39,798 bases of DNA from a virus. Location: IMG/VR virus record IMGVR_UViG_3300040794_000019, positions 1 to 39,798 of that record; one strand, 5' to 3'. This document shows, piece by piece, positions 1 through 32,011 of this stretch. Positions within the stretch are counted from its first letter, which is position 1. Every line of letters begins with the position of its first letter. A program made the position numbers and the translations under genes. The notes below the pieces were generated by a model that did no database searches, had not been told where the DNA came from, and saw only the letters and a list, made by a program, of their open reading frames with translations.

Positions 1-150
1 ATCGGCAGCGCCGGTGCCGCGTTCGCGGGCATCCAGGCGGTCAGCCTGTTCCAGACCGCCTCCATGGCGATTCGCGGTATCTGGCCGACCTCCTGGGGTG
101 CCATGCGCCCGGGCCTGGTCTCCTCGACCGACGGCATCAACTGGGCGTAA
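1..150 (+). CDS. Probable HK97-fold major capsid protein, C-terminal end (partial)
   Basis: The first 49 codons are open from the left edge and end in TAA at 148-150. The tail of the protein reads SLFQTASMAIRGIWPTSWG followed by a Gly/Val-rich end. This pattern (hydrophobic stretch, SLFQ, then AxRxxxPxxW) is what HK97-fold capsid proteins show at their C-terminus, where the last A-domain strand lies. The neighbouring portal gene fits a head module. The fold call rests on a short fragment: it could be another virion protein, and the start lies outside the window. If it is the capsid protein, capsid before portal reverses the usual portal-protease-capsid order. Confidence 0.55.
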   Translation: MGSAGAAFAGIQAVSLFQTASMAIRGIWPTSWGAMRPGLVSSTDGINWA

Positions 151-218
151 TTGCTCCGTGATGTGATCACTCGCGCCAGGGACGGCGCAACGCCAGCGGA
201 CTCAATCAGGAGGCACCT

Positions 219-494
219 ATGCCTACCATCCTAGTGAACAAGAAGTTCAAGCTGATCAAGAAAGATGAGCTTGACGCGATGCTTGCCGCCGGCACGGCGC
301 GCAAGTTCCCCGGCATGCCGATCTACGAGCAGTTGGAGACGCCTGCAGTGGCGGCGCCAGTGCCACCCAAGCAACCGGACCAGCCCGCCCCCGGTCCAGA
401 GGACGACGAGAACGCGCCGACGCAGGACTACGCCACCAGAGAAATGCGGTCCAGTCGCGCGGCGTTGCGCCGGACCACGCGGAAGACCTCCTAA
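219..494 (+). CDS. Small hypothetical protein between capsid and portal genes
   Basis: This encodes 91 residues behind a perfect AGGAGG ribosome site 6 nt before the ATG. The N-terminal half is a short basic/hydrophobic segment (VNKKFKLIKKDELDAMLAAG). The middle, about residues 43-65, is rich in Pro, Ala and acidic residues and looks disordered. The end is strongly basic (RSSRAALRRTTRKTS). I do not recognise a family. The N-terminal part resembles short head-module proteins that carry a single folded peptide plus a flexible tail. Position between capsid and portal suggests a virion or assembly role, such as minor head protein or scaffold-like factor, but that is inference. The upstream gap (151-218) holds two weak hairpins (GTGAT/ATCAC and GCGCC/GGCGC) without a T tract. 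Confidence 0.7.
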   Translation: MPTILVNKKFKLIKKDELDAMLAAGTARKFPGMPIYEQLETPAVAAPVPPKQPDQPAPGPEDDENAPTQDYATREMRSSRAALRRTTRKTS

Positions 495-533
495 GGTCGT
501 GCTATTCAGCAGAACCTTTTTCGGGGGCCGCTA

Positions 534-2024
534 ATGTCCGACTCCACCAACAATCCGACGTGGCTACGGGGCGAAGCCCTCGATCGTTACATAGCCACAG
601 GGCACGACCCCCTCGATGGCTACGCAAAGTCAGGCGGGAATTCAGGACGCGGATTTGACCTGGTCGACTCACGCGGTCGCCCGCTGGTCATCGAGAAGGC
701 GAACGGCGAGTGGAACGGTCCGTTCTTCGGCGCGGGCGAGAACGGAAATCTGTTCGAACTCGGACCGCTTGAACATCCCTTCCAACGCAATCTGCGGATC
801 GGCGGGCAGGACGGCAACGCTGCCGCCTACGCATCCATCGCTGCCTATGCGCAGACGATGGCGACGATGGGCATGTACCACTACCGTCAGCTCGATAACG
901 GCGGACGGGAGATGATCACCACGTCGGCGCTGTCGCGGATCTTGCGCTACCCGAACTGGTATCAGCATCTCAGCGACTTCATGCTGAACTTCGTCTTTGC
1001 GCTGATGACCACGGGCAACGCCTATGGGGTCGTGTTCCGCAACGACCGCAACGAAGTCGACTCGATCCATTTGGTCCCCAGCACCAGCACGACGCCTTAC
1101 GTCGAGACCGAGACGCAGTCGGTCTTCTACGGGATCGGGCCTAATCCGATGCTGCAGACCCCGATGATGCTGGTCCCGGCTCGCGACGTGCTGCATGTGA
1201 GGCTGTTTACCCCGCAGCACCCTCTGATCGGGGTCTCTCCGATCCGGTACGCGGCTTCTGCGATGTCGATCAACAACGCGATCTCGGGCAACCAGGCCGC
1301 GTTCTTCTCGAACATGTCGCGCCCGTCGGGCGTTCTCTCGACTGACGAGAAGCTGAACAAGGAGCAGATGGACGCGTTGCGCGCCGCGTGGGAGGCTCGG
1401 AGTAAGGGCATCAACGCGGGCTCGGTGCCGATCCTCTCTTGGGGTCTCAAGTGGCAGCAGATGACGATCACTTCCGAGGACGCCCAGCTGATCGAGGCGT
1501 ACCGGATGTCTACCGAGGATATTGCTCGGGTATTCCGTGTGCCGCTCGCCCTGATCGGCGACTACACCAAGGCGACCTACAACAACACCGAAACCATGAT
1601 CAACGCGTGGCTCTCCACCGGGCTGGGCTTCCTCATGGAGCACGTCGAGCGCAGCTTCGAGCAGTTCTTCAAGCTGCCCCCAGACCAAGGGGTCAACTTC
1701 GACGAGACCGTGTTGCTACGGACCGACTTCGACACGCGCATCAACGGTCTGACCAAGGCGGTCGCCGGCGGCGTCTACTCGCCCAACGAAGCCCGGGCAC
1801 GCGAGAACCTGCCAGCGGTCGAGTACGGCGATGAGCCGCGCGTTCAGGCGCAGAATCTTCCCCTGTCCGCTGTCGGGACGATGCCAGAGACGCCTGCTAC
1901 GCCTGCCACGCCCGCCACGCCGGGCGACCAGCCGCCTACCGATCCGGCGACCCCGGCGGACGAGCAGGCGAGCATAGGCGAGGCTCACGACGTCATTTTG
2001 AAAAGCATGGGGATTGCGGCATAA
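534..2024 (+). CDS. Portal protein, HK97 type (Phage_portal family)
   Basis: This 496-residue protein is the dodecameric ring at one capsid vertex through which DNA enters and leaves and on which the tail is mounted. Family signs are clear: a central segment with SEDAQLIEAYRMSTEDIARVF followed by VPLALIGDYTKATYNNTET (around residues 320-355), matching the conserved HK97 portal clip/stem region, and the late motif GGVYSPNEARARENLP near residue 415. The last 60 residues are a Pro/Ala/Thr-rich tail (repeated PATPATPATP) ending in a short helix, probably flexible. A GGGGG stretch lies about 8 nt before the ATG. The stop codon overlaps the next start (TAATG). Confidence 0.95.
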   Translation: MSDSTNNPTWLRGEALDRYIATGHDPLDGYAKSGGNSGRGFDLVDSRGRPLVIEKANGEWNGPFFGAGENGNLFELGPLEHPFQRNLRIGGQDGNAAAYASIAAYAQTMATMGMYHYRQLDNGGREMITTSALSRILRYPNWYQHLSDFMLNFVFALMTTGNAYGVVFRNDRNEVDSIHLVPSTSTTPYVETETQSVFYGIGPNPMLQTPMMLVPARDVLHVRLFTPQHPLIGVSPIRYAASAMSINNAISGNQAAFFSNMSRPSGVLSTDEKLNKEQMDALRAAWEARSKGINAGSVPILSWGLKWQQMTITSEDAQLIEAYRMSTEDIARVFRVPLALIGDYTKATYNNTETMINAWLSTGLGFLMEHVERSFEQFFKLPPDQGVNFDETVLLRTDFDTRINGLTKAVAGGVYSPNEARARENLPAVEYGDEPRVQAQNLPLSAVGTMPETPATPATPATPGDQPPTDPATPADEQASIGEAHDVILKSMGIAA

Positions 2025-3649
2025 TGAATGCCGCACTGGGTAGGGTAGCTCCCGAACAAGCGGTTTACCGTGCCGCTTTCCCAGTGCCCCCCTTCCACGG
2101 TGCGATCAGTAACGGTGCTGATATGAAACGTCTTGATCTTACCGGACAGCGGTTCGGGCGCCTTGTCGCTGAGTCTATTGCTGGGCCTGAGTGGCTATGC
2201 CGATGTGATTGCGGCGGGCAAACGCTGGCTCGCGCCGGGCACCTTCGGCACGGCAACGTCACGTCATGTGGATGCTCGCGCGATTTTGATAGTGACATTA
2301 TCGGGAAGCGTTTCGGACTGCTGACGGTCACGGGAAGAGACTCAAAGGGCTACGTGGCTCAGTGCGACTGCGGGAACACTACGCACGTTACGCGACGATC
2401 TCATCTGACCGGTGGCGGTGTTCGATCCTGCGGGTGCATCCGAGGACAGAGCCGGATACGCGACATTACGGGGCAACGATTCGGTAAGCTGATCGCGCGC
2501 TCGCGCACGCATGAAGGCGAGTGGGTGTGCGAATGTGACTGTGGCGGGACGACGACGGTCCGGACAGACCACCTGACCGGCGGGCGCACCGTGTCGTGCG
2601 GGTGCCAGAGGGTGGAGTCTAAGCGAGTCAATACCGAGGTAAATGCCGTTGGAGAAACCTTCGGCAAGCTCACCGTCACGGAAGTCTCGTGGCGCGAAGA
2701 TAGATGGCACAGCGTCGCGTGGGCCAATGGAACGTGTGAATGCGGAAACACGTTCGAGTCGCGTCTAGCTGATCTCAAGAATGGCACGACCCGTACCTGC
2801 GGGTGTGGTACGCACGTCTCCGGGATAGAAGAGGAGTTCGTCAGCTTTCTGCAGGATCTCGCGCCAGTGCGTCCGCAGTACCGTATCGGACGAAGAGTCT
2901 TCGATGCCGCGTTACCGGATAGGAACCTGTTGTTCGAATTCAACGGGGTTTACTGGCACAGTTACCCCAGAACAAAGCGCGCGGCTCATGCTGACAAGAG
3001 GCGCGCTGCCGAAGACCTCGGGTTTCGCGTCATCTACGTATGGGAGGATCAATGGCTTTACCGGACCCAGCAAGTCAAAGACTACCTGGAGCGCGTGCTG
3101 CTAGGGGCGAAGCGCAAAATAGGCGCACGGCAACTGATACCACACGACGTCCCACGTACCGACGCGGTGGCATTTCACGAGCAGTTCCATCTGCAGGGCT
3201 TCAAGAACACGATCTCCACGCTGCACTTCGGGCTGAGTTCGAAGCAAGGCGAATTGCAAGCCGTGGCTAGCTTCTCACCTGACGGGACGCTGCACCGGTA
3301 CACCGTTCGCTCGGGGGTATCCGTAGCCGGCGGGCTACCGCGAATGGTGAAAGCGTTTAGCGCGGCCACGCCGACTGCCAGCAAAGTCATCACGTTCTGC
3401 GATCGTGACCACTTCTCCGGCGGTGTCTACGAGCAAGCGGGCTTCCAGAAAACGGGGCATTCACTGACAATGAGCTACGTGCAAAGACGCCGCAGACTTC
3501 GCCGTGAGCATTTCCAGAAGCACAAGCTCCCCGGTATTTTCAACGATGTCGATATGTCACAGAGAGAGATCGACATCTGCGCGGCGAACAGCATCTACGC
3601 GTGCTGGAATTCGGGCGTGGACCGCTACGAACTGAGTCTCCGAACATGA
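2024..3649 (+). CDS. Homing-type endonuclease with four Zn-binding modules and a Vsr/PD-(D/E)XK-like core
   Basis: The 541-residue protein has three parts. Residues about 37-265 hold four modules of roughly 45-55 residues, each GxxFGxL..., then CxCG, then a Leu-Gly stretch ending CGC; the paired CxC and CGC suggest a zinc knuckle for DNA binding. Residues about 270-360 carry the nuclease core seen in phage free-standing homing enzymes: FDAALPDRNLLFEFNGVYWHS, then a His/Lys helix and VIYVWEDQW. The last part (IGARQLIPHDV onward, ending with FQKHKLPGIF and YACWNSGVDRYEL) is the C-terminal domain usually linked to that core. It probably cuts DNA at a site in related phages lacking the gene and spreads by repair. 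The start at 2024 overlaps the portal stop; ATG at 2123 is an alternative because residues 1-33 match no module. The stop overlaps the next gene (ATGA). Confidence 0.85.
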   Translation: MNAALGRVAPEQAVYRAAFPVPPFHGAISNGADMKRLDLTGQRFGRLVAESIAGPEWLCRCDCGGQTLARAGHLRHGNVTSCGCSRDFDSDIIGKRFGLLTVTGRDSKGYVAQCDCGNTTHVTRRSHLTGGGVRSCGCIRGQSRIRDITGQRFGKLIARSRTHEGEWVCECDCGGTTTVRTDHLTGGRTVSCGCQRVESKRVNTEVNAVGETFGKLTVTEVSWREDRWHSVAWANGTCECGNTFESRLADLKNGTTRTCGCGTHVSGIEEEFVSFLQDLAPVRPQYRIGRRVFDAALPDRNLLFEFNGVYWHSYPRTKRAAHADKRRAAEDLGFRVIYVWEDQWLYRTQQVKDYLERVLLGAKRKIGARQLIPHDVPRTDAVAFHEQFHLQGFKNTISTLHFGLSSKQGELQAVASFSPDGTLHRYTVRSGVSVAGGLPRMVKAFSAATPTASKVITFCDRDHFSGGVYEQAGFQKTGHSLTMSYVQRRRRLRREHFQKHKLPGIFNDVDMSQREIDICAANSIYACWNSGVDRYELSLRT

Positions 3650-6600
3650 ACGTCACTGAATTCACTCCGCGTCACGTCGCCGAGGCGACCGGGCGCATCA
3701 TCAAGCAGCAGCGCGAAGAGATCGGTGTCGAGCTGACGCGTCTGGAGAACGGACTCAACGACCTCTCGGATGCCATCGTCTCGACAGACAAGGCGATCCG
3801 CGATGACGCCAAGGCAACCTACGCCAACCTGCAGAATGGTCTTGGCGAGCTGAAGCACCGGATCGACCTACTCGATCAGCAGGTCAAGGCAGCTCCGCGT
3901 GAGGATCTCGGACCGCTGCGCGAGTCCATTGCGGAGCTGCGGGCGCACGTCAAGCTGGTCGAGAAGATGACCGGTCCGCGTGGCGCGAAGGGAGACCCTG
4001 GACAGCGTGGTCCGGAAGGCGCGCGCGGGCAGAACGGCAAAGACGCGAACCCGAAGGACGTTGCGAAGGTGCTCGCCACCGAGCACCGCGACATTCTCCG
4101 GGGCGAAAAAGGCGACCCAGGCGTCCAAGGACCAGCTGGTCGCGATGGCGCCGATGGCAAAGACGCCACGCCCATCGACCCGTCGCACGTCGCCAAGGCG
4201 CTTGTCAGTGAGCACCGGGACATCCTCCGGGGCGAGAAAGGCGATCCAGGCGTTCAAGGTCCAGCGGGGCGCCCTGGCGCCGACGGCAAAGACGCCCTAC
4301 CAGTTGATCCGAAGCACGTCGCCAAGGCGCTCGCCGAAGAGCACCGCGACGCCCTGCGCGGCGAGAAGGGTGACACTGGTCCCGCCGGTCCCCCCGGACA
4401 GGGTCTCGTCGGTGCGCAAGGCGACCCGGGCCCGGCGGGACCGCCCGGGCGGGACGCTGATCCGGAAGAAGTCGCACGCAAGATGGCGGAACGCTACGCG
4501 TACCTGCTCACAGGCGAGAAGGGCGCGAAGGGCGAACGTGGCGAGAAGGGCGAACGTGGCGAAGCGGCGTCCCCGCAAGCGGTCGCGCGCGAATTGGTCC
4601 TCGATCACCGTGACCTGCTCAAAGGCGAGCGTGGCGAGCCCGGCAAGCGCGGCGAGAAGGGCGAGCCAGGTCCGCGCGGTCCGGATGGGGCGCCCGCCGA
4701 TCCAGCGGTTGTTGCGAACATCCTGGTCGAGAAGTACGCCGAGATCATCTCGGGCAAGCGGGGCGAGAAAGGCGACCCAGGACCCACGGGTCCGATCGGC
4801 CCGAAAGGCGCGGACGGCTTCGCCATCGGAGCCAACGCGCCGTTCTGGGAGCGCGGCGCCATCTACGTTGAAGGCGACGTCGTCCAGTACGGCATGGGCA
4901 AGCTTGCCCGCTGCATTAAGCGGACGAACACCAACCCGCGCAACCGCACCGACTGGGAGCGCATTGGCGCGGTCGGGCTGGACTACCGGGGCTATGTCAA
5001 GGCGGAAGATACAAGCACGCTCGAGAACGGCGACTTCTTCACGCAGGACAACTCGATCTTTCTGAAGTACGGCGACAAGGTGAAGCTCGTCGTGAAGCGT
5101 CCGAAGCCGGGCGACCCCGGGCGGGACGGGCGCGACGGCAAGGACGGCGCGGATGGACCGACCCCTCTCGCGGTTGCCGTGAAGGACGGCAAGCTGGTGT
5201 CGCTATGGAGCGACGGCAACGAGATTGAGTTCACCGGGTTTGAGGACGCGCTGGAGCGCAAGGTCAAGTTCTTCATGGAGCAGTCCGAAGAGGACCGTTT
5301 GCGCCAGATCGAGATCGAGCGCGGCATTCCGCTGCGCGCTTTCAAGGGTTCGCACAACCGCACGATCGCCTACACCAAGGGCGACATCGTCAGCGCATCG
5401 AAGAAGCAGTACATCGCGATCAACAACGTGCCGGCTGACCGCAGCATCAACCCGCAGGACTGGTCGGAGTTCAGTGGTGGCGGTGGCGGTGGCGGCATGG
5501 CGTCTTCCTCCGCGTCTCTCGGAACGGCGGGCTGGTATAACGAGCGCAAGGTCTACAAGCCGGGCGACTACACGACAAACTACGATCCGAGTCGCCCTAC
5601 CACGTTCACCACGATGTGGCAGAACCAGACTGGCGCCAGCATCGGGCCTGAGCCATGGGATGTATCCCAATGGACCCCGATCAGCTCCAGCTACTACTCG
5701 GCGTGGGGACAAGAGTTCACCAACACCGGTCTGGTATCCGGCGGGCAGATCACCGTCACGGGCGCGACCCAGCTCACGGTAGCCCCGGGGCAGGCGCTGT
5801 TCGTGGACTCGTTCAATTCCAGCAACGTCACGTCGAACCTCGTCGAATGGACCGACCCGATCGTCGTCGACATCCCGGACATCGTCACGGACCACTTCTA
5901 TTACCTGTACATGATCAGTACAGGGGAGATTCGCCACTACACGAATCAACCGAACACCGCGACCAACCGTTTCCAGGTCTTTCTGGGCACCGTAGCGGTG
6001 GACCCGGACAGACCGTTCCAGATCGGTGATCTGTTGAACTGGCCCTATCTGGCGCAGGAAACAGCATCCAGCTTCCACGATGTCCAGCAGTTGTTCTTCA
6101 AACCGCAGGTTGTCTCTGGTGGTGCGATCTCACCCGTAGACGGCGCGTTGCAGGTCAACATGGCGCCAGCGCGGCTGTACGCCCGTGGATGCAACTTCTA
6201 CAACAACCCGGCGCAGCCGAACGAAAAGACTTCGGCGGGTTTCTCGCCGCTGGAGTTTGAGTACGTCATGGACGGGGCCACGGTATCCAGCCCGCCGTTG
6301 TCCGATTTCGACTCCGCGCAGTACAACACCATCATGAGCGGCGGGCTTCAACCGGTCGATCCAGGCAAAGCGCAGATACAGCTGATCTACTTCTCGCTTG
6401 CGGTGGAGAAGTTCTACGTCATCTACGGGCAAGAACTGTATGACACGCTAGACCAAGCGATCAACCAGATCCCCAACTATTCCGCGTCTGTCATTTTGCC
6501 GAGAGCATTGACAGAGAACGGGCTGTTCGTTGGCTACGTGGTCATGGTTGCGAATGCGACCAATCTCGCGGATAAGACCACGTCGCTTGTGCGCAGTGCA

Positions 6601-7803
6601 GCGGGTTCGCAGGCGCAAGGCGCGGGGCAGGTCGTTGAGGAACTCGACGGTCTGACTGACGTGACCTTGTTCGACCGTCGACAAGGGCAGACGCTGGTCT
6701 TCGACCAGGCGGCGGGCAACTGGACCAACCAGACCCCTAGCAACCTTGGCGTCTGGATAACACAAGCCAGTCACGGGCTTAGCGCCGGGCAGGCAGTGTG
6801 CACGGACGGCGTGGTGTGGACGCCAGCCATCGCGAACGACTCGGACACTTTGGCAGACGGCATCGTGGTTGCTGTGCTCGGGGAGAACGAGGCGTATATC
6901 CAGTACGCCGGCGAGGTGCCCTACTCGAACTCATTCACGCCGGGCAGCCTGCTGTACCTGAGCAGCGACGTCGCCGGCGAGATCGTCGAAACGCCGGGCT
7001 CGATCCCGATGCTGATCGGCAAGGCGGTAAGCAGCTCGATGATCCTGCTGTCGCTGTCTCGCCTGGATGTGGTTCCGCGTAACGGGTTTCTGCAGGCGGA
7101 CTACCGGTTCAGCTTGGACGACACCGGCACCGATCCTGGCGTGGGCAACCTAGCCGTGAACAACACGGTGCCTTCCTCGGCGACGCGCTTGCTGGTCAAC
7201 TCCATCGACGCGACAGGTTTTCAGCACATACTGTCGTGGAGGCACGTCTTCCCTGGCGACACCGTTACGATCGGCAGCGTCAGGGACAACGCCTACTACA
7301 CCTACACCTTGACCGGGTATCCAATCAGTCACGGTTCTTGGTTGGAGCTTCCGGTACAGATCCTCGCTATCAGGGACACGCTGGGCGGCGGGCAACTGGT
7401 CTCGTTGGAGTCCAGCCCAACGTCTGGCGCCGCCAAGCAGGTCTTGGTCCAGCGGCAAGTTGAGCAGCCGAACACGTTCACGGTTGGCACGCCAGTCTAC
7501 AAAGATGCAGCGGGGTTATGGCAGCTAGCACAAGCCGATGACCTAAGCCGACTGGCTAACGGCTTCGTCATGAATCCGGGTCCGAAGATGTTCGACGTCG
7601 CTAGCAGCGGCACTGTCTTAATCTCCGGTCACGGGTTCCCCGTTGGCAGCACGCTCTACCTGGACCCGACTATTCCCGGCGGGCTGACCGAGACCAGACC
7701 CGTCCTGAAGGGCACCTACGCCCAGGCGATCTTCGACGTGGTAGATGATCTTCGTCTCACCTACGTCAGCGAAGCAATAACAGACAACAGTTTGGAACTC
7801 TAA
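3646..7803 (+). CDS. Large collagen-like fibre protein with helix-interrupted triple-helix segments
   Basis: I place the start at ATG 3646, in an ATGA overlap with the endonuclease stop; the in-frame GTG at 3601 lies inside that gene. The 1,385-residue protein begins with about 105 residues of heptad-rich coiled coil. Residues about 110-393 are collagen G-X-Y triplets broken by six copies of a roughly 20-residue helix (pattern DPxxVAxxLxxEHRDxLxGEKGD), a bead-like stalk. A second short collagen stretch (GDPGRDGRDGKDGADG) follows near residue 490. Two small chitin/carbohydrate-binding-type modules (CBM5/12-like: VEGDVVQYG..W and YTKGDIVSASKKQYIA..W) flank it. After a Gly7 hinge come beta-rich domains, ending in two copies of an adhesin-type tip domain. 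It is probably a trimeric surface fibre; attachment site on the virion is unknown. Confidence 0.85.
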   Translation: MNVTEFTPRHVAEATGRIIKQQREEIGVELTRLENGLNDLSDAIVSTDKAIRDDAKATYANLQNGLGELKHRIDLLDQQVKAAPREDLGPLRESIAELRAHVKLVEKMTGPRGAKGDPGQRGPEGARGQNGKDANPKDVAKVLATEHRDILRGEKGDPGVQGPAGRDGADGKDATPIDPSHVAKALVSEHRDILRGEKGDPGVQGPAGRPGADGKDALPVDPKHVAKALAEEHRDALRGEKGDTGPAGPPGQGLVGAQGDPGPAGPPGRDADPEEVARKMAERYAYLLTGEKGAKGERGEKGERGEAASPQAVARELVLDHRDLLKGERGEPGKRGEKGEPGPRGPDGAPADPAVVANILVEKYAEIISGKRGEKGDPGPTGPIGPKGADGFAIGANAPFWERGAIYVEGDVVQYGMGKLARCIKRTNTNPRNRTDWERIGAVGLDYRGYVKAEDTSTLENGDFFTQDNSIFLKYGDKVKLVVKRPKPGDPGRDGRDGKDGADGPTPLAVAVKDGKLVSLWSDGNEIEFTGFEDALERKVKFFMEQSEEDRLRQIEIERGIPLRAFKGSHNRTIAYTKGDIVSASKKQYIAINNVPADRSINPQDWSEFSGGGGGGGMASSSASLGTAGWYNERKVYKPGDYTTNYDPSRPTTFTTMWQNQTGASIGPEPWDVSQWTPISSSYYSAWGQEFTNTGLVSGGQITVTGATQLTVAPGQALFVDSFNSSNVTSNLVEWTDPIVVDIPDIVTDHFYYLYMISTGEIRHYTNQPNTATNRFQVFLGTVAVDPDRPFQIGDLLNWPYLAQETASSFHDVQQLFFKPQVVSGGAISPVDGALQVNMAPARLYARGCNFYNNPAQPNEKTSAGFSPLEFEYVMDGATVSSPPLSDFDSAQYNTIMSGGLQPVDPGKAQIQLIYFSLAVEKFYVIYGQELYDTLDQAINQIPNYSASVILPRALTENGLFVGYVVMVANATNLADKTTSLVRSAAGSQAQGAGQVVEELDGLTDVTLFDRRQGQTLVFDQAAGNWTNQTPSNLGVWITQASHGLSAGQAVCTDGVVWTPAIANDSDTLADGIVVAVLGENEAYIQYAGEVPYSNSFTPGSLLYLSSDVAGEIVETPGSIPMLIGKAVSSSMILLSLSRLDVVPRNGFLQADYRFSLDDTGTDPGVGNLAVNNTVPSSATRLLVNSIDATGFQHILSWRHVFPGDTVTIGSVRDNAYYTYTLTGYPISHGSWLELPVQILAIRDTLGGGQLVSLESSPTSGAAKQVLVQRQVEQPNTFTVGTPVYKDAAGLWQLAQADDLSRLANGFVMNPGPKMFDVASSGTVLISGHGFPVGSTLYLDPTIPGGLTETRPVLKGTYAQAIFDVVDDLRLTYVSEAITDNSLEL

Positions 7804-8197: not shown

Positions 8198-9850
8198 ATG
8201 CCGTGGGCAATCAAAGCTGGTGGTGGCGGACTTCGTCAAAAGGTGTCCAACATCGAGTTCGTCGAGAACGTGTGGGTCCGGATCGGCGTGCTCGCATCCG
8301 GGCAGGCAGTCGAGCTGGACGTCGAGTCTGGACACGGTCTCGTGGCGCACGGTATTACTCGTATTTCGCTCGGCAACTGGGGTGGCGCCAAGGGACCATC
8401 GCTAGTGGTGCTTGGGCAATCCGGCGAGCCGATGCTCACTGGTGTTCGCTTGATCGATGGTGGGGCTGACTCGTCCCTCGTGGAATTGCGTGTCGGCGGT
8501 GCACCCAGTGGGTTGTCTGTCAAAAGCGTGGTCGTGACTGGCGAGTCTAGGATCAATGGGTTCACTTTCCAGTCGCCTGAGTTCATCGCGTCACCGGGGG
8601 GTACCGCGCTTGCTACATTCGCGGTAGCCTCGACCGACATGTTGATCAGCCAGTACAGCGGCGAACAACCGTTCCGCGTAGACGAAGAAGGTAGAGCGTG
8701 GTTCGGTAGTAAAACCCGGCAGATGCTCAATCTGTACGGGGACAGCTACAGCGCCGGCGTCCAATCCAGCACGCTCTACCAGCGATCTGGCGGAAACTTC
8801 AGCTGGCATAAAGGTGGCGTGCATAGTGATGCCTCACGCGATCCCGGAGCTGGTGGCGTCGAGCAGATGTGCTTGGACACGAATGGCGATTTGACAGTTG
8901 CTCGTCGCACATTGAACAAAGCTGCGCGTACCTCGCCTTCTGATCGCGAACTAATCGAATCGGCGTACTTGAACAGTCGTCTGCCGGTTGCTACCCCGCA
9001 ACAAATAGTTCAATTCGATCTTGTCTCTGGTTCAAACAACAACTGGATCGAGGCTTTTCGGTTTAGGTCTGCGGGGTGGGGCAACTATTTCTTATTTTGG
9101 GTGTTTTCAGGTTACTACGGGAATTCTAGCTCACCTGTAGAATCGTGGTACGGTATAGGCTACCGTGGATCTAACCTATACGGGTGGGTATTATCTACGC
9201 TTGCACATCACAGACGGGACGGTGCCTTCAGTCGCGTTGCGTTCAGCGGTGACGGTAATACTACCGGAACCAGTTATTTATCTCTCCAAAAAAGAGCAAG
9301 CGCGGGCTACCCTATAATCGCTGGAATGACCCAGCTTGGCGCGAGCAGGGTTGCCATGGACACAAGCGAGTCTGGTCGTGTCGTCGGTGGGTCTCCTCCT
9401 GGGACTCCAGTAGTACAGGTTGCACTTTCGTCCCGTGATAGTGATCGTTTCGGTTTTGCCAGCGAGAACCATTTCGACGGCGTCACTGACGGTGGCAAGC
9501 GCAAGATTCGAGGCTACCAGCGCGACCCGTGCGAGGTGCTCGGCGCGATTACCGATCCGACCGTTTACGACCGGCTGATGAAGGACGACCCCAGCGTGGA
9601 GGTAGGCTTCCCGCGTATGCGCGAGGACATCAACCGCTACAATGCCGAACGCGCATTGGAGGCGCTAGAGGATGCCCTGCTGCGCCGTATGGTCCGCACA
9701 CCAGGCGCAATCGTCGTGCCGAGGCAGCACGAGGCCGTGGAGTGGTTGGAGGACATCGTAGCGAACCCGCCGCGTGATCGGTACATCTCGCCAGCCGACT
9801 ACCTGGAGAAAGGCATCGACATTACCGATGAGCACCAGTTCTCGCTATGA
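8198..9850 (+). CDS. Tail-fibre-like receptor-binding protein
   Basis: A GGAGA site 8 nt before the ATG precedes a 550-residue protein. Residues 1-150 are beta-rich with many Gly/Val turns. Residues about 155-235 contain the segment FRVDEEGRAWFG...LYGDSYSAGVQSSTLYQRSGG and CLDTNGDLTVAR, the kind of GxxxxG/DxxGxxxVxR shaft seen before the head of many phage fibres. Residues about 265-425 form an aromatic-rich region (YFLFWVFSGYYGNSS, SWYGIGYRGSNLYGWV) encoded by clearly more AT-rich DNA than its flanks; this is where a receptor-contact domain would lie. The last 110 residues (from GGKRKIRGYQRDPCEVLG) are helical and charged, resembling the C-terminal tail of intramolecular-chaperone-type fibres. 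Function is inferred from layout; no catalytic motif is visible. Confidence 0.75.
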   Translation: MPWAIKAGGGGLRQKVSNIEFVENVWVRIGVLASGQAVELDVESGHGLVAHGITRISLGNWGGAKGPSLVVLGQSGEPMLTGVRLIDGGADSSLVELRVGGAPSGLSVKSVVVTGESRINGFTFQSPEFIASPGGTALATFAVASTDMLISQYSGEQPFRVDEEGRAWFGSKTRQMLNLYGDSYSAGVQSSTLYQRSGGNFSWHKGGVHSDASRDPGAGGVEQMCLDTNGDLTVARRTLNKAARTSPSDRELIESAYLNSRLPVATPQQIVQFDLVSGSNNNWIEAFRFRSAGWGNYFLFWVFSGYYGNSSSPVESWYGIGYRGSNLYGWVLSTLAHHRRDGAFSRVAFSGDGNTTGTSYLSLQKRASAGYPIIAGMTQLGASRVAMDTSESGRVVGGSPPGTPVVQVALSSRDSDRFGFASENHFDGVTDGGKRKIRGYQRDPCEVLGAITDPTVYDRLMKDDPSVEVGFPRMREDINRYNAERALEALEDALLRRMVRTPGAIVVPRQHEAVEWLEDIVANPPRDRYISPADYLEKGIDITDEHQFSL

Positions 9851-10446
9851 TCGTCAATATTCGCTTTTTCGATAACGACTCGCGCCGGGACATCCAAGGC
9901 AAGTGGTGGGCGGACCCGACGCGCGACGCTGTCGTTTATGATGGCATGGTAGTGTGGAAGAACGCGAAGCTCGATGCGGACTGCTCGCACGTCAATGGCG
10001 CCGCCATTCAAGACGACCGGCTGGTTTACGTAACAGCGGTCTCCAACAGCCGTCTAGCGCATGAGTGGCGCCAGAAGACCGAAAACGGTGGTGTCGTATT
10101 TGATGTGGAGGGAAAGGTGATCCTCGGCGGTCTATCGATGCCACACTCACCGCGCATCTATGGCGATGACCTGTTGTTCTGCGAATCGGGCTACGGTGCT
10201 TTGCGGTCATTGGAGCATGGGTTTATCGCAGAGTTGCCAGGCTTTACGCGCGGGCTGCTGATAGCCGGCGACACTGCTTTTGTGGGGTTATCCGCGATGC
10301 GATACGACGATGACTTCACACGCAATCTTCCGCTACGCGGATGGGTGCCGGAACCGGTCTGTGGGATTGCTGAAGTCGACATCGCAACGGGCGATTACTC
10401 AGTTACGCCGATCTTGAACGAAACCGAAATCCTAGACATCTACTAA
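9847..10446 (+). CDS. DUF4915/TIGR03032-like beta-propeller fragment
   Basis: The start overlaps the upstream stop (ATGA). The 199-residue product carries the conserved core that I associate with the DUF4915 (TIGR03032) family: a HVNGAA motif near residue 48, VTAVSNS...WR near 60-75, GLSMPHSPRIYGDDLLFCESG near residues 96-116, and LPGFTRGLLIAGDTAFVGLS near 128-147. Cellular members are usually longer (roughly 300-400 residues) and of unknown function, so this is a short form. The repeated short strands with Gly/Asp turns suggest propeller blades. In this setting, flanked by two fibre genes, a glycan-binding or structural role in a fibre is plausible but unproved. The family assignment is from motif memory and should be tested by profile search. 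Confidence 0.7.
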   Translation: MIVNIRFFDNDSRRDIQGKWWADPTRDAVVYDGMVVWKNAKLDADCSHVNGAAIQDDRLVYVTAVSNSRLAHEWRQKTENGGVVFDVEGKVILGGLSMPHSPRIYGDDLLFCESGYGALRSLEHGFIAELPGFTRGLLIAGDTAFVGLSAMRYDDDFTRNLPLRGWVPEPVCGIAEVDIATGDYSVTPILNETEILDIY

Positions 10447-25536: not shown

Positions 25537-25916
25537 TGCACTGGGCGGTGAAGTACCTCGATCAGCAGTGGTCGCAACGGACCGACTGCTGGTGGTTCTT
25601 CCGCAAGGTGCAGATGGAGCAGTACGGCAGGATCATCCCGGAGATCGATGTTGATAGCCTGCACCTGCCGACCGTAATCCGCACGATCCGCGATCACGAG
25701 GAGCGCACCCGGTGGGCGGAGGTCCGCACTCCCATGGACGGTGACGGCGTCCTGCTCGGGCGTAGCGCCCGGCTCTCTCATGTCGGCATCTTCGTCGCGG
25801 TCGACGGCGGGAAAGTCCTGCACTGCGACCAGAAAGCTGGCACGCTACTTCAAGACCTACCAAGCCTCCGCCTCAACGGCTGGAACCACGTCCACTGGTA
25901 CTCCCCATGCAACTGA
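25536..25916 (+). CDS. Tail-tip NlpC/P60-type peptidase (lambda K-like)
   Basis: ATG 25536 overlaps the upstream stop (TAATG); the open frame upstream to 25488 is inside the DUF1833 gene. The 126-residue protein has the catalytic pattern of phage tail-tip Cys peptidases: Cys18 in TDCWWFFRKV and His82 in LSHVGIFVAVDGGKVLHCD. Such proteins are thought to cut peptide cross-links in peptidoglycan when the tail penetrates. It is short for the family and lacks the Mov34/JAB part present in lambda K. Its end overlaps the tip gene start by 10 nt. Confidence 0.87.
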   Translation: MHWAVKYLDQQWSQRTDCWWFFRKVQMEQYGRIIPEIDVDSLHLPTVIRTIRDHEERTRWAEVRTPMDGDGVLLGRSARLSHVGIFVAVDGGKVLHCDQKAGTLLQDLPSLRLNGWNHVHWYSPCN

Positions 25917-28900
25917 TCACGCAATCGAACGTCTTCAACCCGTCTGAGCGCGAGATCGTTCTGTACGATGCCGGACAGACGCTGGCGGAGCTTGCGCCAG
26001 AGACCCATCAGCCGTTCATTCTGTTCCTGAACGGCGAGGTGATCCTGCGCGAGCAGTGGGATGATCTCGTTGCGTGCGAGGACGATATCGTCCATTGCGT
26101 CTACCTGCCGGCGGGCGGTGGCGGGGGCGGGGGCAACAAGGCGGCGGGCATCGCGATCGCCGTCATCGCCATCGCGGCGGCGGTCGTTGTCGGTCCAGCG
26201 GCTTTAGCGTTTGCAGGCACTCAGCTCGGTCTCGGCTCTGCGGGCGCTGCTGCTTTCAGTTCCGCAGCCGTTGCCGCGACCACAATGGCAGGCGCCGTGC
26301 TGGTCAACGCGGTCCTGCCCCCGCCGTCGCTTCCTCGGCAGCAGCAGCAAGCCGCACTCGCGGCGCCAAGCCCGACCTATGACCTCAATGCGCAGGGCAA
26401 CTACAGCCGCCTCGGGCAGGTAATCCCGGTGCAGTACGGGCGGATGAAATTCTTCCCGGACTACGGTGCGAAGCCGATTTCTGAATACACCGGGCAGGCT
26501 ATGAACTTGACCGAACTATTCGTGATCGGTCGCGGATACTACGATATTGAAGAAATACAGCTGGGTGGCGTACCGGTTCAGTCAGTAGGGAATGTGTATT
26601 ACTACATATACAACCCAGGCGAGACTGTCGACACTTTTCCAACTAACCGCATTTTCACGTCAGTCAATGAGTCGGGTCTTCCGTTGCCGAACGGAACGCC
26701 GACCAACGCCTATGAGACCAACCCGCCCGGGACTGTTCTGTCTGGTCGGGTCGTGCTCAATATGGTGTTCCCTAACGGGCTCTATGACATTTATGAGAGT
26801 AACTGGAATGGTGTTCCTGCTGGCGGTCTAGGCGCAGTAACCTTGGGGTGGGATATCCAAGGGCAGGGTATAGCAGACGATGGAACGGTAATAGCTGACT
26901 GGGATTTGTTGAAAAAGGTATCAGTCCGGGGGGAGACACGCGACCGGCTCGGTGTTACGCACGAGGTAGAAATACCATCTAATTGGCCTCGCGCTCGTAT
27001 TCGCCTGAATTTTTTCCAGGAGACATCGAACACTTACCAGACGATGATGAATGATCTCGTTTGGGTCAGCACGACAGCTTACATCGTAGAGGACTCGGCG
27101 CAAGCTACTGCGTTCGACGACATGACAACGCTTGTTGTCAGGTCTAGCACCGGCGTTAATCAAACGTCAGCACCACAACAGAACCGGAAGGTGTCCGTCA
27201 TAGCGACCCGCCGGGTGCCGATCTACGATTCGGGTAGCGGAACGTGGTCGGAACCACAAGCCACGAGAAGTGTTGCGTGGGCGTTCGCGGACGCTGTCCG
27301 CAACGGCACCTACGGCGCAGGGCTGGGCCCGAATGAGTATTCCATTGACGACGTTGTAAAGCTGGCGCAGGAAGCCCAAGGCTGGCGATTCGACGGTCGC
27401 TTCGACAATGCCACCGTGGTGTGGGAAGTCCTTACCCAGATACTCCGGGCGGCACGGGCGCAACCGTACATTCAGGGCGGCGTGCTGCGGATCGCGAAGG
27501 ACCGTGACCAGACAACTCCGGTCGCGATGTTCGGTATGCGCAACATCATTAAGGATTCGTTCTCCATGGAGTTCGTCCCGCCTGGCGAAGAGACCGCTGA
27601 CATTGTCGCTGTCCAGTACCTAGACGAGGATGTGTGGCTGCCGCGCGTCGTTGCTGCTGCATGGAACGCGGGAGATCCCGTTGACCCGGACGACACCGAG
27701 GTCTTGGTCGACTTGTTCGGCGTCGTGAACCGCGACTACGCCTACAACGAAGCCTACTACCTGGCGCGTGCCAACCGGTTCCGCCGCCGCCTGATCTCGT
27801 TCCGGACCGAGATGGAGGGCTTCATCCCGTCACTCGGCGATCTGATCTCGGTCAGCCACGAGCTACCCTCGTGGGGCGTATCAGGCGAGGTTGTGGGTAT
27901 CGACCCGGACAACAACGCCACGTTGATCCTGAGCGAGCCGCTGGACTGGGCGTCCAACCCGACGCAGTTCCTCGTGCTTCGGCAGCGTGACGGCGTTCCG
28001 CGCAACGTGATGCAGGCTACAAGAGGCGCCACCGACTATCATGCCGTCCTCCAAGCGCCTCAGTCGTTCATCGACACGGGAACAGACCGCGAGCGCACGT
28101 ATTTTGCTGCCGGCGGTACGACCGACAAGCTGGACCGATTGGCTATCGTTACGGGCGTTCGCCCGATCTCGGAGAAAGAGGTCGAGATCTCCGCCACGAT
28201 CGATAGTCTGATGGTGCGTACCTTGCCGCCGGTGGACGCGCCGACTCCCCCCGGACCGCCGCCGATCCAGGAGCCGTGCCTGGCGCCGGTCGTAACCGAC
28301 CTAAGTGTCTCGACCGACCGCGACTTCACAGTTCTCTACATCGCGTTCAGTGCGCCAGAGTGCGCGACGCTGTTCGACTACCAAATCGCGAACACGATCA
28401 CCAGCGACCCGAATGCGATCTTGGACGAAGAGTGGGAGACGATTTTGTGGCAGGACTCCCGGCGTGGTGTGACCGTGCCGAACACCTACGGCGTCGGCGT
28501 GTGGGTGCGCGTGCGTGCCTATGGAGCCACCGTGGGTCCATGGACAGAGCCGGAAGAACTGAAGTTCGTCGCGACGCCCCCAGGCGGCGGGTACGAGCCG
28601 AAGCCGCTATTGGAGCCGCCGACGCCTGTCGACATGGATGCGACTATAGAAGGGTTCCAGTTTCGTCCATTGGCTGCTGGCCTTGAGCCTCACTGGGTGG
28701 ACACAGATTCAGAATATTTGAGAGGGGTCAACGTATGGATCAATACAATAGACGACCCTGATACCGCGTGGTTTGTCGCCACTGCTACGGCTACCGTAAT
28801 CGAGCAGGACGCGAACCCCGTCACTCCGGGCTTCTTCGAGGTCTATGGGCTTACCAGTAACACGACCTATTTCGTCTGGTTGCAGTCGGTCAATACAGAC

Positions 28901-31900
28901 GGCGTGGGTGGGCTGTTCTCGGCTCCCGTTATCACTGGCACGACCTATTACACCTGGGAAGACCTTCAAGGTGAGTTAGATGAGTCGTGGTTGACCGAAG
29001 AGCTAAACGACAGAATCGATAATATCGAAGACCTAATGCAAGAGGTCGACGATATACAACAGGAGATAGAAGATTCTAACAAGTTCCTCCAAGACCAGAT
29101 CGATGACCTGAACAATTCGATCGGAGATCTGGAAGGAATCAGCGACTACGACCCGGCTAGGGATTATACAGCTGGCGATCTTGTGGTCTATAACGGGTTC
29201 CTTTTCCGCGCTAATAAAGACATGACGGCGCCAGCTCCGGTGCCGGGGTCTGCTGCGGATGTCGACTCAAACTCGTGGCTCAAGCTGGGCGACTACGACT
29301 ACCTAGCTAGTGACTTGACCGCGCTGACCGCAGTCGTCACGCAGAACACTTCTGATATACAAGAAAACGAAGCTGGCATTGAGGCAAACGCCAGTCAGAT
29401 AACCAGCATACTCGCCAAAGTCGATGACCCAGACACGGGTAACGCTGCGCTCGGTAACGCGGTTGACGCCCTCGGTACGCGCGTCACTACGAACGAAGGT
29501 AACATCCAGGTCAACTCCGGAAAGATCACTGACATCGAGTCACTGGTCTACGATGGAGAGACTGGCAATGTCGCGTTGGCTAGCGTAACAGAACAGCTGA
29601 CCACGGACGTCGCCCTGATCGACGGTGAGCTGACCGCGATGGGTGGGCGCCTCACTGTCGTCGAAGCCCAGGTTGGTTCAGGCAACCTAATTACCGACGC
29701 TAACCTTTCAACCGGGTTCAACTCGTGGACAGAAACAGGCAACACGCCAGTCACTGTGAATTTCTACAGGGACGGCTCGTACGCGCTGATTTCTGACGGC
29801 GAAGAACAAACCGCCGTTATAGCGACTAATGGTGCACAAGGTAGCGATGTAAACTCGTATGGGGAGCTTTACAGCCTATCTATACCAGTCACTCCAGGCA
29901 AACACTATTGCGCTTCTGTTTACGCGATAGGCCAGTATGCAAACGCCAGGCTTCTGATAAAATACTATTCAGCGACCAACACGTACATATTTGCGTCGGG
30001 GACTCCCTCTGCGACTAAGTCTAACCTTAACGGCAATAGGTTGGAAGACTTCGATCGCGTCTTTGTGTTCGATACAGCGCCCATTAACGCTGTTAAAGCA
30101 GTAATCGCTCTTCGCTTATATGCCACGGGGACTGACTCAACGCGAGTGGGCACCGCGAAGTTCGTTCGTCCGATGTTCAACGAGATGTTGACGGACACGG
30201 CTACCGAGCCACCACTTTGGACGTCAGGCGAAGCACCGGTCAGTGCTGAAATTCGTAAGGTTCAGATTGCTTATGCCGCTGCGGACAGCGCGATTGCCCA
30301 AGACGTCACTACACTAGAAGCCCAAGTAGACTACAACGGTAGCGGAGGTGGGCAGAGTTCTCCTCTTGGGCAGTACGTTGACAGCGTAAAGGTGACCGCT
30401 ACTGCTGCTGATAATCTGTCAAAAGCGAATGCACAGTCAATAACGCAGCTTCAAGTTGGCGTTGGTCCTAGTGGCAACCTGCTACAAGACTCTACGTTCC
30501 AACTTAATCCACCGCCTGAAATACCGATGAATGGCGTTAGTACGAACACTCCATGGGAGCGATTTTATAGCAGCGGCACCGATAAAGCCAGCGACCTACG
30601 ATTTCTGAGGCAAAGTACAGACCCGTACAGTTGCTTGGATGGCTACGAAAATGAGGGCACATTTTATCAAGCGGTAGACGCCATCACCACAGGGGCGCCT
30701 TTACGTGTGGGTCTTAGGCAGAAGGTGCCAGCTACCGAAGGGCGTGCCTACATCGCGTCTGCCCACGTCATGATAACGTATAGTGCACAGTCTGCAGCTA
30801 CCGTAACAGTCGGGATTAAGTTCTGGAGTTCAAGAACGGTAGAAATAGCGAACTCCACCAGTTTCACTGAAACTAGGCACTACAACAGCAATTTCCAGTC
30901 GCTGAGCGCCTATAAAAGAGCATCAGCTACTAGCCCCATGGTGGCTCCGTCCAATGTTAAATTCGTCAGCATAGAACTGCGCTACACAGCACTGAATAAT
31001 AATGAACCTTCTGGGTCGGCGAAGATAGTTCGTCCTATGTTGTCAGAAGCGACTGACATCAACCAGTCTGAACCTACGCCATGGGCAGCTGGTAGAGACC
31101 CAGAGGTGTTCGCCGCTATCCAAGAGACCATGACGGTCTGGGCGGAAAAAGTATCAGGCACAGGCACCGGAAGTACTGATGCTGGTGCAACCTATGTAAT
31201 GAAGATCCGGGCTGGATCGCAGTTCAGCGAGGCGCAAGCCGGTTTCGGCATGTCGGCGCTTTACAATTCATCGACTGGTAAGTACGAGACGGACTTCCGC
31301 ATAAAAGCTCAGCGGTTCGCGATTCTGGACAACAATTCAAATCTGAGTGGAACTAACTCGGATAACAACTACCCATTCGTGGTGACAGGTGGTGTTTGCT
31401 ATATCAAGAATGCTGTCATCCAGAATGGCGCTATCACTACAGTGAAGATCGGTGATGCGCAGATAACAGAAGCGAAAATAGCCAACCTCGCTGTAACCAC
31501 TGCGAAAATAAAAGACGCCAACATAACCGAGGCAAAGATAGGGACCGCTGCTGTAACCAACGCGAAAATAAAAGACGCTCAGATAACCGCTGCGAAGGTT
31601 GCGACAGCGGCAATCGAGACATTGAAAGTGAAAGGCGCAGCGGTAACGTCTGTTTATTTCGCAGATATGGGACAACTTACTGTCACAAGCGCGGCGTGGG
31701 TGAACGGTTCTGGTATCGGCATAGACATGAAAGACAAAGATTCAACTTCAGCGGTGGTTATCACAGTGTCGTACAGTATGGGCGGTACTCAAACTGTGCA
31801 GTCTGAAGTGCGTGTCAGGCGGAACGATGGCTGGTACACCAAGACGAGATCCGCGCAGCTCAATGCTAACACTGGAGCCGTGGTAACCGTGATGCTGATA

Positions 31901-32011
31901 GACCCGGCCCCTATAAATGGGGCTAACTACTACACATTGGAACTACACACACAGTCTGGTTCCATGACTAGCAACTGGAACTCAATAGCGGTACAAGGCG
32001 CAAAACGATGA
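25907..32011 (+). CDS. Central tail tip / host-specificity protein (I-J fusion type)
   Basis: The 2,034-residue protein begins with a small beta-grasp-like part (residues 1-70), a Gly7 run and about 60 hydrophobic residues (AIAIAVIAIAAAVVVGPAAL), the lambda-I-like region here fused to a J-like hub. The hub core follows (IPVQYGRMKFFPDYG near 175; RRRLISFRTEMEGFIPSLGDLISV near 625). Two FN3-like regions (from about residue 790) lead to a coiled coil (1018-1075), a CBM5/12-like module (about 1079-1128), more coiled coil, and two jelly-roll carbohydrate-binding-type domains opening GNLITDANLSTGFNSW and GNLLQDSTFQ (about 1258-1428 and 1521-1728). Near 1730-1830 a DUF1983-like segment precedes AKI-repeat strands (1831-1915) and a terminal beta sandwich. 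It should contact the receptor and guide ejection. Confidence 0.92.
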   Translation: MQLITQSNVFNPSEREIVLYDAGQTLAELAPETHQPFILFLNGEVILREQWDDLVACEDDIVHCVYLPAGGGGGGGNKAAGIAIAVIAIAAAVVVGPAALAFAGTQLGLGSAGAAAFSSAAVAATTMAGAVLVNAVLPPPSLPRQQQQAALAAPSPTYDLNAQGNYSRLGQVIPVQYGRMKFFPDYGAKPISEYTGQAMNLTELFVIGRGYYDIEEIQLGGVPVQSVGNVYYYIYNPGETVDTFPTNRIFTSVNESGLPLPNGTPTNAYETNPPGTVLSGRVVLNMVFPNGLYDIYESNWNGVPAGGLGAVTLGWDIQGQGIADDGTVIADWDLLKKVSVRGETRDRLGVTHEVEIPSNWPRARIRLNFFQETSNTYQTMMNDLVWVSTTAYIVEDSAQATAFDDMTTLVVRSSTGVNQTSAPQQNRKVSVIATRRVPIYDSGSGTWSEPQATRSVAWAFADAVRNGTYGAGLGPNEYSIDDVVKLAQEAQGWRFDGRFDNATVVWEVLTQILRAARAQPYIQGGVLRIAKDRDQTTPVAMFGMRNIIKDSFSMEFVPPGEETADIVAVQYLDEDVWLPRVVAAAWNAGDPVDPDDTEVLVDLFGVVNRDYAYNEAYYLARANRFRRRLISFRTEMEGFIPSLGDLISVSHELPSWGVSGEVVGIDPDNNATLILSEPLDWASNPTQFLVLRQRDGVPRNVMQATRGATDYHAVLQAPQSFIDTGTDRERTYFAAGGTTDKLDRLAIVTGVRPISEKEVEISATIDSLMVRTLPPVDAPTPPGPPPIQEPCLAPVVTDLSVSTDRDFTVLYIAFSAPECATLFDYQIANTITSDPNAILDEEWETILWQDSRRGVTVPNTYGVGVWVRVRAYGATVGPWTEPEELKFVATPPGGGYEPKPLLEPPTPVDMDATIEGFQFRPLAAGLEPHWVDTDSEYLRGVNVWINTIDDPDTAWFVATATATVIEQDANPVTPGFFEVYGLTSNTTYFVWLQSVNTDGVGGLFSAPVITGTTYYTWEDLQGELDESWLTEELNDRIDNIEDLMQEVDDIQQEIEDSNKFLQDQIDDLNNSIGDLEGISDYDPARDYTAGDLVVYNGFLFRANKDMTAPAPVPGSAADVDSNSWLKLGDYDYLASDLTALTAVVTQNTSDIQENEAGIEANASQITSILAKVDDPDTGNAALGNAVDALGTRVTTNEGNIQVNSGKITDIESLVYDGETGNVALASVTEQLTTDVALIDGELTAMGGRLTVVEAQVGSGNLITDANLSTGFNSWTETGNTPVTVNFYRDGSYALISDGEEQTAVIATNGAQGSDVNSYGELYSLSIPVTPGKHYCASVYAIGQYANARLLIKYYSATNTYIFASGTPSATKSNLNGNRLEDFDRVFVFDTAPINAVKAVIALRLYATGTDSTRVGTAKFVRPMFNEMLTDTATEPPLWTSGEAPVSAEIRKVQIAYAAADSAIAQDVTTLEAQVDYNGSGGGQSSPLGQYVDSVKVTATAADNLSKANAQSITQLQVGVGPSGNLLQDSTFQLNPPPEIPMNGVSTNTPWERFYSSGTDKASDLRFLRQSTDPYSCLDGYENEGTFYQAVDAITTGAPLRVGLRQKVPATEGRAYIASAHVMITYSAQSAATVTVGIKFWSSRTVEIANSTSFTETRHYNSNFQSLSAYKRASATSPMVAPSNVKFVSIELRYTALNNNEPSGSAKIVRPMLSEATDINQSEPTPWAAGRDPEVFAAIQETMTVWAEKVSGTGTGSTDAGATYVMKIRAGSQFSEAQAGFGMSALYNSSTGKYETDFRIKAQRFAILDNNSNLSGTNSDNNYPFVVTGGVCYIKNAVIQNGAITTVKIGDAQITEAKIANLAVTTAKIKDANITEAKIGTAAVTNAKIKDAQITAAKVATAAIETLKVKGAAVTSVYFADMGQLTVTSAAWVNGSGIGIDMKDKDSTSAVVITVSYSMGGTQTVQSEVRVRRNDGWYTKTRSAQLNANTGAVVTVMLIDPAPINGANYYTLELHTQSGSMTSNWNSIAVQGAKR
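31430..31640 (+). repeat. Tandem short repeats encoding ITxAKIxDAxI units
   Basis: A set of imperfect units of 15 to 45 bp centred on GCGAAAATAAAAGACGC and related forms encodes repeated ITEAKI / TTAKIKDAN strands. It links the DUF1983-like part to the terminal domain of the tip protein. Repeats of this kind form a triangular beta prism in trimeric or threefold tip spikes of lambda-like phages. Confidence 0.75.

Follow-up and report, generated by a model that had tools for sequence, protein, structure and literature searches.

Free-standing homing endonucleases located between conserved genes are already known. In phage T4, such enzymes cleave phage genomes that do not carry the gene, in many cases at a distance from where it is inserted, and the gene is copied across during repair (PMC2988022, PMC6083498). 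The nrdA and mobE genes of T4 overlap in the sequence UAAUGA, and both translational coupling and hairpins were proposed as control (PMC2988022); T4 homing endonucleases under hairpin control are known (PMC2988022). In a different context, a 2021 survey described jumbo-phage fusions of Mom domains with REase domains, for which it predicted a role in restriction-modification (PMC7824862).

Here we describe a clean example of a free-standing homing endonuclease gene between conserved genes, in a viral sequence of 39,798 nucleotides (IMGVR_UViG_3300040794_000019, positions 1 to 39,798; hereafter the window). We put at about 85% the probability that a free-standing gene for a homing endonuclease (Hef-like, of the EDxHD/Vsr-fold class) inserted itself at the ATGA junction between the portal and fibre genes, keeping both neighbours whole, and is mobile by homing (Table 1). 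Cutting, mobility, coupling and control by a start-codon hairpin are what we infer, mobility from the presence and absence of the gene in the sequences compared.

Table 1. Features at the portal/endonuclease/fibre locus (window coordinates).
Feature	Position	Strand	Basis
Portal protein gene	534..2024	+	PF04860 E 4.6e-75; phrog_12
Perfect 8-bp inverted repeat, TGCGGCAT-AATGA-ATGCCGCA, over portal stop and endonuclease start	2015..2035	+	Repeat scan; local fold
Proposed inserted segment, 1625 nt	2023..3647	+	Joined flanks against L132/L043; 0/72 relative junctions occupied
Predicted Hef-like homing endonuclease ORF, 541 aa, ATG at 2024	2024..3649	+	phrog_559 E 1.2e-48, phrog_374, phrog_3339; tblastn to phage Hef-like genes
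33-codon leader before first domain; possible regulatory leader	2024..2122	+	No similarity; low pLDDT
Cys-rich repeat 1 (LTGQRFGRL...CDCG...CGC)	2129..2275	+	Repeat alignment by eye
Cys-rich repeat 2	2291..2437	+	Repeat alignment by eye
Cys-rich repeat 3	2453..2608	+	Repeat alignment by eye
Cys-rich repeat 4	2645..2809	+	By eye; pLDDT mostly 60-83 here
Vsr-fold/EDxHD nuclease domain, residues 263-360	2810..3103	+	I-Bth0305I profile and fold match
Mom-like GNAT-fold domain, residues 367-541	3122..3646	+	8bv8 Foldseek, Z; hhalign to Mu Mom
Collagen-like fibre gene	3646..7803	+	PF01391 E 1.8e-20; fibre start as in L132/L043/L004
ATGA overlap, fibre start/endonuclease stop	3646..3649	+	ORF calls; ATGA also at relatives' portal/fibre junctions

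The portal and fibre genes were named from Pfam and PHROGs. The portal protein ends in ...SMGIAA with its TAA stop at 2022-2024, and at this left junction (GCGGCATAATGAATG) the endonuclease start, ATGAATG at 2024, shares one base with the portal stop (TAATG), while at the right junction (CCGAACATGAACG) the fibre start, ATGAACG at 3646, overlaps the endonuclease stop by four bases. Both overlaps had been claimed in the original prediction and were confirmed from the ORF coordinates, and the translational coupling that it proposed on both sides is possible, given overlaps of 1 and 4 bases. Because the twin contig L001, which overlaps the window and is 99.99% identical over positions 1-7367, holds the same insert, an assembly slip is unlikely. 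Elsewhere in the window, positions 25907-32011 form a single ORF of 2034 codons.

The gene product belongs to a large family, with Hef-like relatives in hundreds of phage records (tblastn) and in at least 114 viral-contig stretches, 80 of which were kept, several of them on contigs of 270-430 kb. Residues 36-262 comprise four Cys-rich, zinc-finger-like repeats, most of which were modelled at low confidence. The 47-member family profile matches the catalytic domain of I-Bth0305I (3r3p, E 6.2e-7), and the nuclease domain modelled alone (mean pLDDT 85) finds 3r3p as its first match (Z 12.3 over 94 residues), with Vsr (1cw0) at Z 10.7. The conserved acidic and histidine residues expected of the EDxHD (Vsr-fold) class accompany this catalytic fold, D294, E305, H312, H322, and K325 being invariant across 47 aligned sequences. 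No Pfam HNH match was obtained. Judging from the sequence and the structural model, the protein is a Hef-like homing endonuclease of the EDxHD/Vsr-fold class and not an HNH enzyme, despite database labels, because its nuclease domain has the Vsr fold and is closest to I-Bth0305I. Its earlier description as a homing-type endonuclease thus stands, borne out by the homing-endonuclease PHROGs, the Hef-like tblastn matches and the nuclease domain nearest to I-Bth0305I.

The C-terminal domain, modelled with pLDDT mostly above 93, has the Mom/GNAT fold. Its Foldseek match to phage Mu Mom (8bv8, E 1.1e-6) is far ahead of other matches, the superposition reaches Z 13.4 over 159 residues, which is tied with plain GNAT enzymes, hhalign of the family against Mu Mom gives P 1.4e-4 (probability 52%), and Pfam Mom is matched by 7/47 family members. 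The position of Mom S124, located by one hhalign alignment only, is Ser in 34/47 aligned sequences, Ala in the related phage L031 and Pro439 in the window copy, which therefore lacks the Mom serine. A Mu Mom structure with S124 mutated carries the title 'inactive mutant S124A'. Because this serine is replaced by Pro, DNA modification by the window copy appears doubtful.

Relatives of the locus were gathered with the L001 capsid gene, which led to 28 related loci, and through portal alignments, which led to more. None of 72 distinct relative junctions holds a relative of the endonuclease at the portal, and in most of them the portal stop overlaps the fibre start. With mechanical start choice, the next start lies at -4 in 35 junctions, at -8 in 17, and at -1 in 5, and several of the remaining ones are visibly ATGA but were given a longer spurious ORF. 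In the best-matching empty site, that of L132, the portal ends with SMGLAA followed by TGA and the fibre begins MSDFDTRHLVQATGEILREQRE; the fibre N-terminus of the window (MNVTEFTPRHVAEATGRIIKQQREE) is matched by the fibre starts of L132, L043 and L004. When the window flanks are joined without the insert, they align continuously with L132 across the junction (93 columns), match L043 exactly over 14 bases (TTGCGGCATGAACG), and align likewise with L004. These three junctions have a four-base ATGA overlap, GCATGAACG or GCATGAGCG (GCATGA). Because L132, L043, and L004 align across it, the junction before insertion most likely read GCGGCATGAACG, with the ATGA overlap. The gene is thus optional between two genes that are adjacent in relatives, as indicated by the 72 junctions and the L132 alignment, and the predictions that portal and fibre were once directly joined and that the cassette entered exactly at their junction are supported by these empty sites. 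Unrelated sequence at the junction was not what the comparison found, since L132, L043, and L004 align across it.

The limits of the insert were set by parsimony, and a placement up to 3 bases further left is equally good; the segment is flanked by a shared CAT (2020-2022 and 3645-3647). It is almost wholly ORF (1625 nt for 541 codons), and both neighbour proteins are intact, the portal retaining its last residue and the fibre its start. The gene stands outside any self-splicing intron or intein, as judged from the insert size, Rfam, and the portal end: Rfam gave no match at the locus with E up to 1, and an intron or RNA element was rejected on this negative result and on the portal ending at its normal residue. 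The GC3 of the endonuclease gene is 0.67, against 0.82 for the portal and 0.78 for the fibre; a recent foreign origin was nevertheless rejected on composition since 0.67 equals that of other window genes, e.g., 9847-10446, and a recent arrival of the insert is unsupported because its GC3 is within the range of other phage genes.

In the original prediction, the ancestral joint was TAATGAA (TAATGAACG, with the empty form GCGGCATAATGAACG); in such a history, the insert would have entered inside ATGAA and left a copy at each edge. The similar ATGAA-N-G edges are indeed present, and a few distant relatives (L151, L160, and L166) do have TAATG junctions, but the three best-matching relatives without the gene (L132, L043, and L004), in which portal and fibre are directly joined and the fibre start matches, read GCATGA with the ATGA overlap, and L044 has TAA, yet its fibre start lies 4 bases further on. 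We therefore consider a TAATGAA ancestor unlikely. Of the two copies, the one on the right is native to the fibre gene, which begins with ATGAACG in L004, L043, and L044 as well, and the left one lies inside the insert. Because, on the placement by parsimony, the portal TAA and the left ATGAATG arrived with the insert, the edges do not represent a duplicated target, and a target-site duplication was rejected for them, as it was for the shared CAT, which is mostly forced by start and stop codons. Taken alone, the similarity between ATGAATG and ATGAACG carries little weight: both must contain ATG, and 3 of the next 4 bases agree, which a hand estimate places at ~5% by chance. It could also be proposed that the leader at 2024-2122 is the old 5' end of the fibre gene and that the present fibre start is a replacement carried by the cassette, as the protease gene of L031 did have its start displaced by an HNH homing endonuclease, and the leader begins with MN and has short words in common with L004 and L044. 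However, comparison of the leader with fibre starts was inconsistent (shuffle fractions 0.02-0.28, with different residues each time), whereas the similarity among fibre starts is reached by only 0-1 of 1000 shuffles. The leader was rejected as a displaced fibre start on the absence of consistent similarity, and we regard this history as very improbable.

A further explanation concerns function, namely that the protein is a self-contained restriction-modification fusion of an REase and a Mom-like domain, kept for attacking host or rival phage DNA while the phage's own DNA is protected. The Mom fold of the C-terminal domain, the role predicted for the jumbo-phage Mom-REase fusions (PMC7824862), and the occurrence of several relatives on the 270-430 kb contigs are in its favor, but the residue at the S124 position is Pro here and Ala in L031, against Ser in 34/47, the gene is optional in this phage group and differently placed in L031, and the PHROGs and phage annotations say homing or HNH endonuclease; this makes a restriction-modification role distinctly improbable. 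Loss of the gene, or an older rearrangement, instead of entry keeps a small probability because the portals of the closest empty relatives are only 58-66% identical. Actually, a near-identical phage without the endonuclease gene was not found, single-sequence portal or terminase searches for closer relatives returned the twin contig only, and one contig scan for endonuclease relatives gave a single distant match.

Under the favored reading of entry by homing, the portal and fibre genes would originally have met in a four-base ATGA overlap, into which the 1625-nt insert would have introduced a TAATG where the new portal stop overlaps the start of the endonuclease, with the endonuclease stop overlapping the old fibre start (ATGA), so that the portal and fibre proteins would stay full and both downstream genes would be readable by re-initiation. 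During mixed infection, a phage genome without the gene would be cleaved by the enzyme, probably within the conserved portal gene or close to it, and repair on the donor template would carry the endonuclease gene across, flanks included. Since portal 3' DNA is poorly conserved, cutting may take place elsewhere than at the junction; in a comparison of five portals, the 40-nt stretches with the highest conservation begin near 1540, 1486, and 1333 and are candidates only. The related phage L031 carries a 34-38% identical endonuclease, the only endonuclease relative among the related loci, elsewhere, upstream of its protease, as expected for a mobile gene.

L031 also carries an HNH homing endonuclease (6273-7265, phrog_655) behind a displaced 39-codon prohead protease start; at 7258, overlapping the end of this endonuclease, lies a complete replacement for that start. 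The displaced and replacement starts are homologous (0/2000 shuffles). A 355-aa ORF at 9859-10926 of L031 shows a GIY-YIG-like motif (YIGKTSQGLAHRALQHIQ, by eye) and a GTGA overlap with the portal start. This ORF, for which no Pfam or PHROG match was obtained, may be a third L031 endonuclease located at a coupled junction.

The endonuclease is probably translated by re-initiation after the portal stop, by analogy with T4 mobE, for which this mode was proposed and whose UAAUGA overlap is the same (PMC2988022). Its start codon is located in the loop of the 2015-2035 hairpin (local fold -12.8 kcal/mol), one of 7 perfect 8-bp inverted repeats of this type in the 39.8 kb window, and a larger fold (2005-2095, z -2.8) competes with it. 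Both folded regions were picked after being seen, and control by the start-codon hairpin is suggestive only. What is unusual here is the predicted coupling on both sides, together with the location of the start codon in a hairpin loop. Overlap with both neighbours was found in 0/65 other Hef-like ORFs, a few of which overlap one neighbour by ~4 bases, in a mechanical screen with automatic start choice in which many loci were without a callable neighbour on one or both sides. The L031 endonuclease has no leader of the 2024-2122 kind. A second in-frame ATG, at 2123, lies just ahead of the first domain; translation may truly begin there, or 2024-2122 may be a regulatory leader. A promoter-like TTGAAA-16-CATAAT is seen at 1998-2025, the insertion completing the second hexamer; neither this match nor a terminator-like one exceeds what is seen in shuffles.

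It is conceivable, and in our judgement rather unlikely taken as a whole, that the Hef-like family carries its own Mom-like DNA-modifying domain, with which many members could mark the genome that encodes them and shield it from their own cutting, that the window copy is a derived one in which the serine was lost and the fold retained for binding DNA, and that invasion of overlapping virion genes, taken together with the start-codon hairpin, is a repeatable, regulated route in this phage group. If true, there would be Hef-like homing enzymes with built-in self-protection. A paper joining the Mom family and homing endonucleases was not found in the literature searched, which was mostly without subscription papers. 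The locus connects two readings of one architecture, Hef-like homing and REase-Mom, which are treated apart in the papers searched; the residue at the S124 position could separate them, and a simple test is suggested, namely whether many phage homing endonucleases modify DNA.

The window protein shares tblastn similarity and PHROG homing/HNH families with the phage Hef and Hef-like proteins (e.g., of Salmonella phage Jersey, and Hef58 of Campylobacter phage NCTC12673), and it has the nuclease and C-terminal domains in common with its viral-contig relatives, while identity to Hef-like proteins is only ~20-35%, the N-terminal Cys-rich repeats vary, and the window gene lies between two virion genes and overlaps each of them. 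I-Bth0305I resembles the window nuclease in catalytic fold (Z 12.3) and profile (E 6.2e-7) but is titled a mobile intron protein, whereas the window gene is without an intron and has a Mom-like domain after the nuclease. The jumbo-phage REase-Mom fusions (PMC7824862), compared by description only, show the same two-domain pairing, which was read there as restriction-modification, while the window copy is without the Mom serine. As with mobE and other free-standing enzymes of T4, an optional gene lies between conserved genes; those enzymes are of the HNH or GIY-YIG class, from which the window enzyme differs, and here the downstream gene is overlapped too. The locus offers a base-resolved view, before and after, of the probable entry of a homing endonuclease gene into a four-base overlap with both virion genes undamaged.
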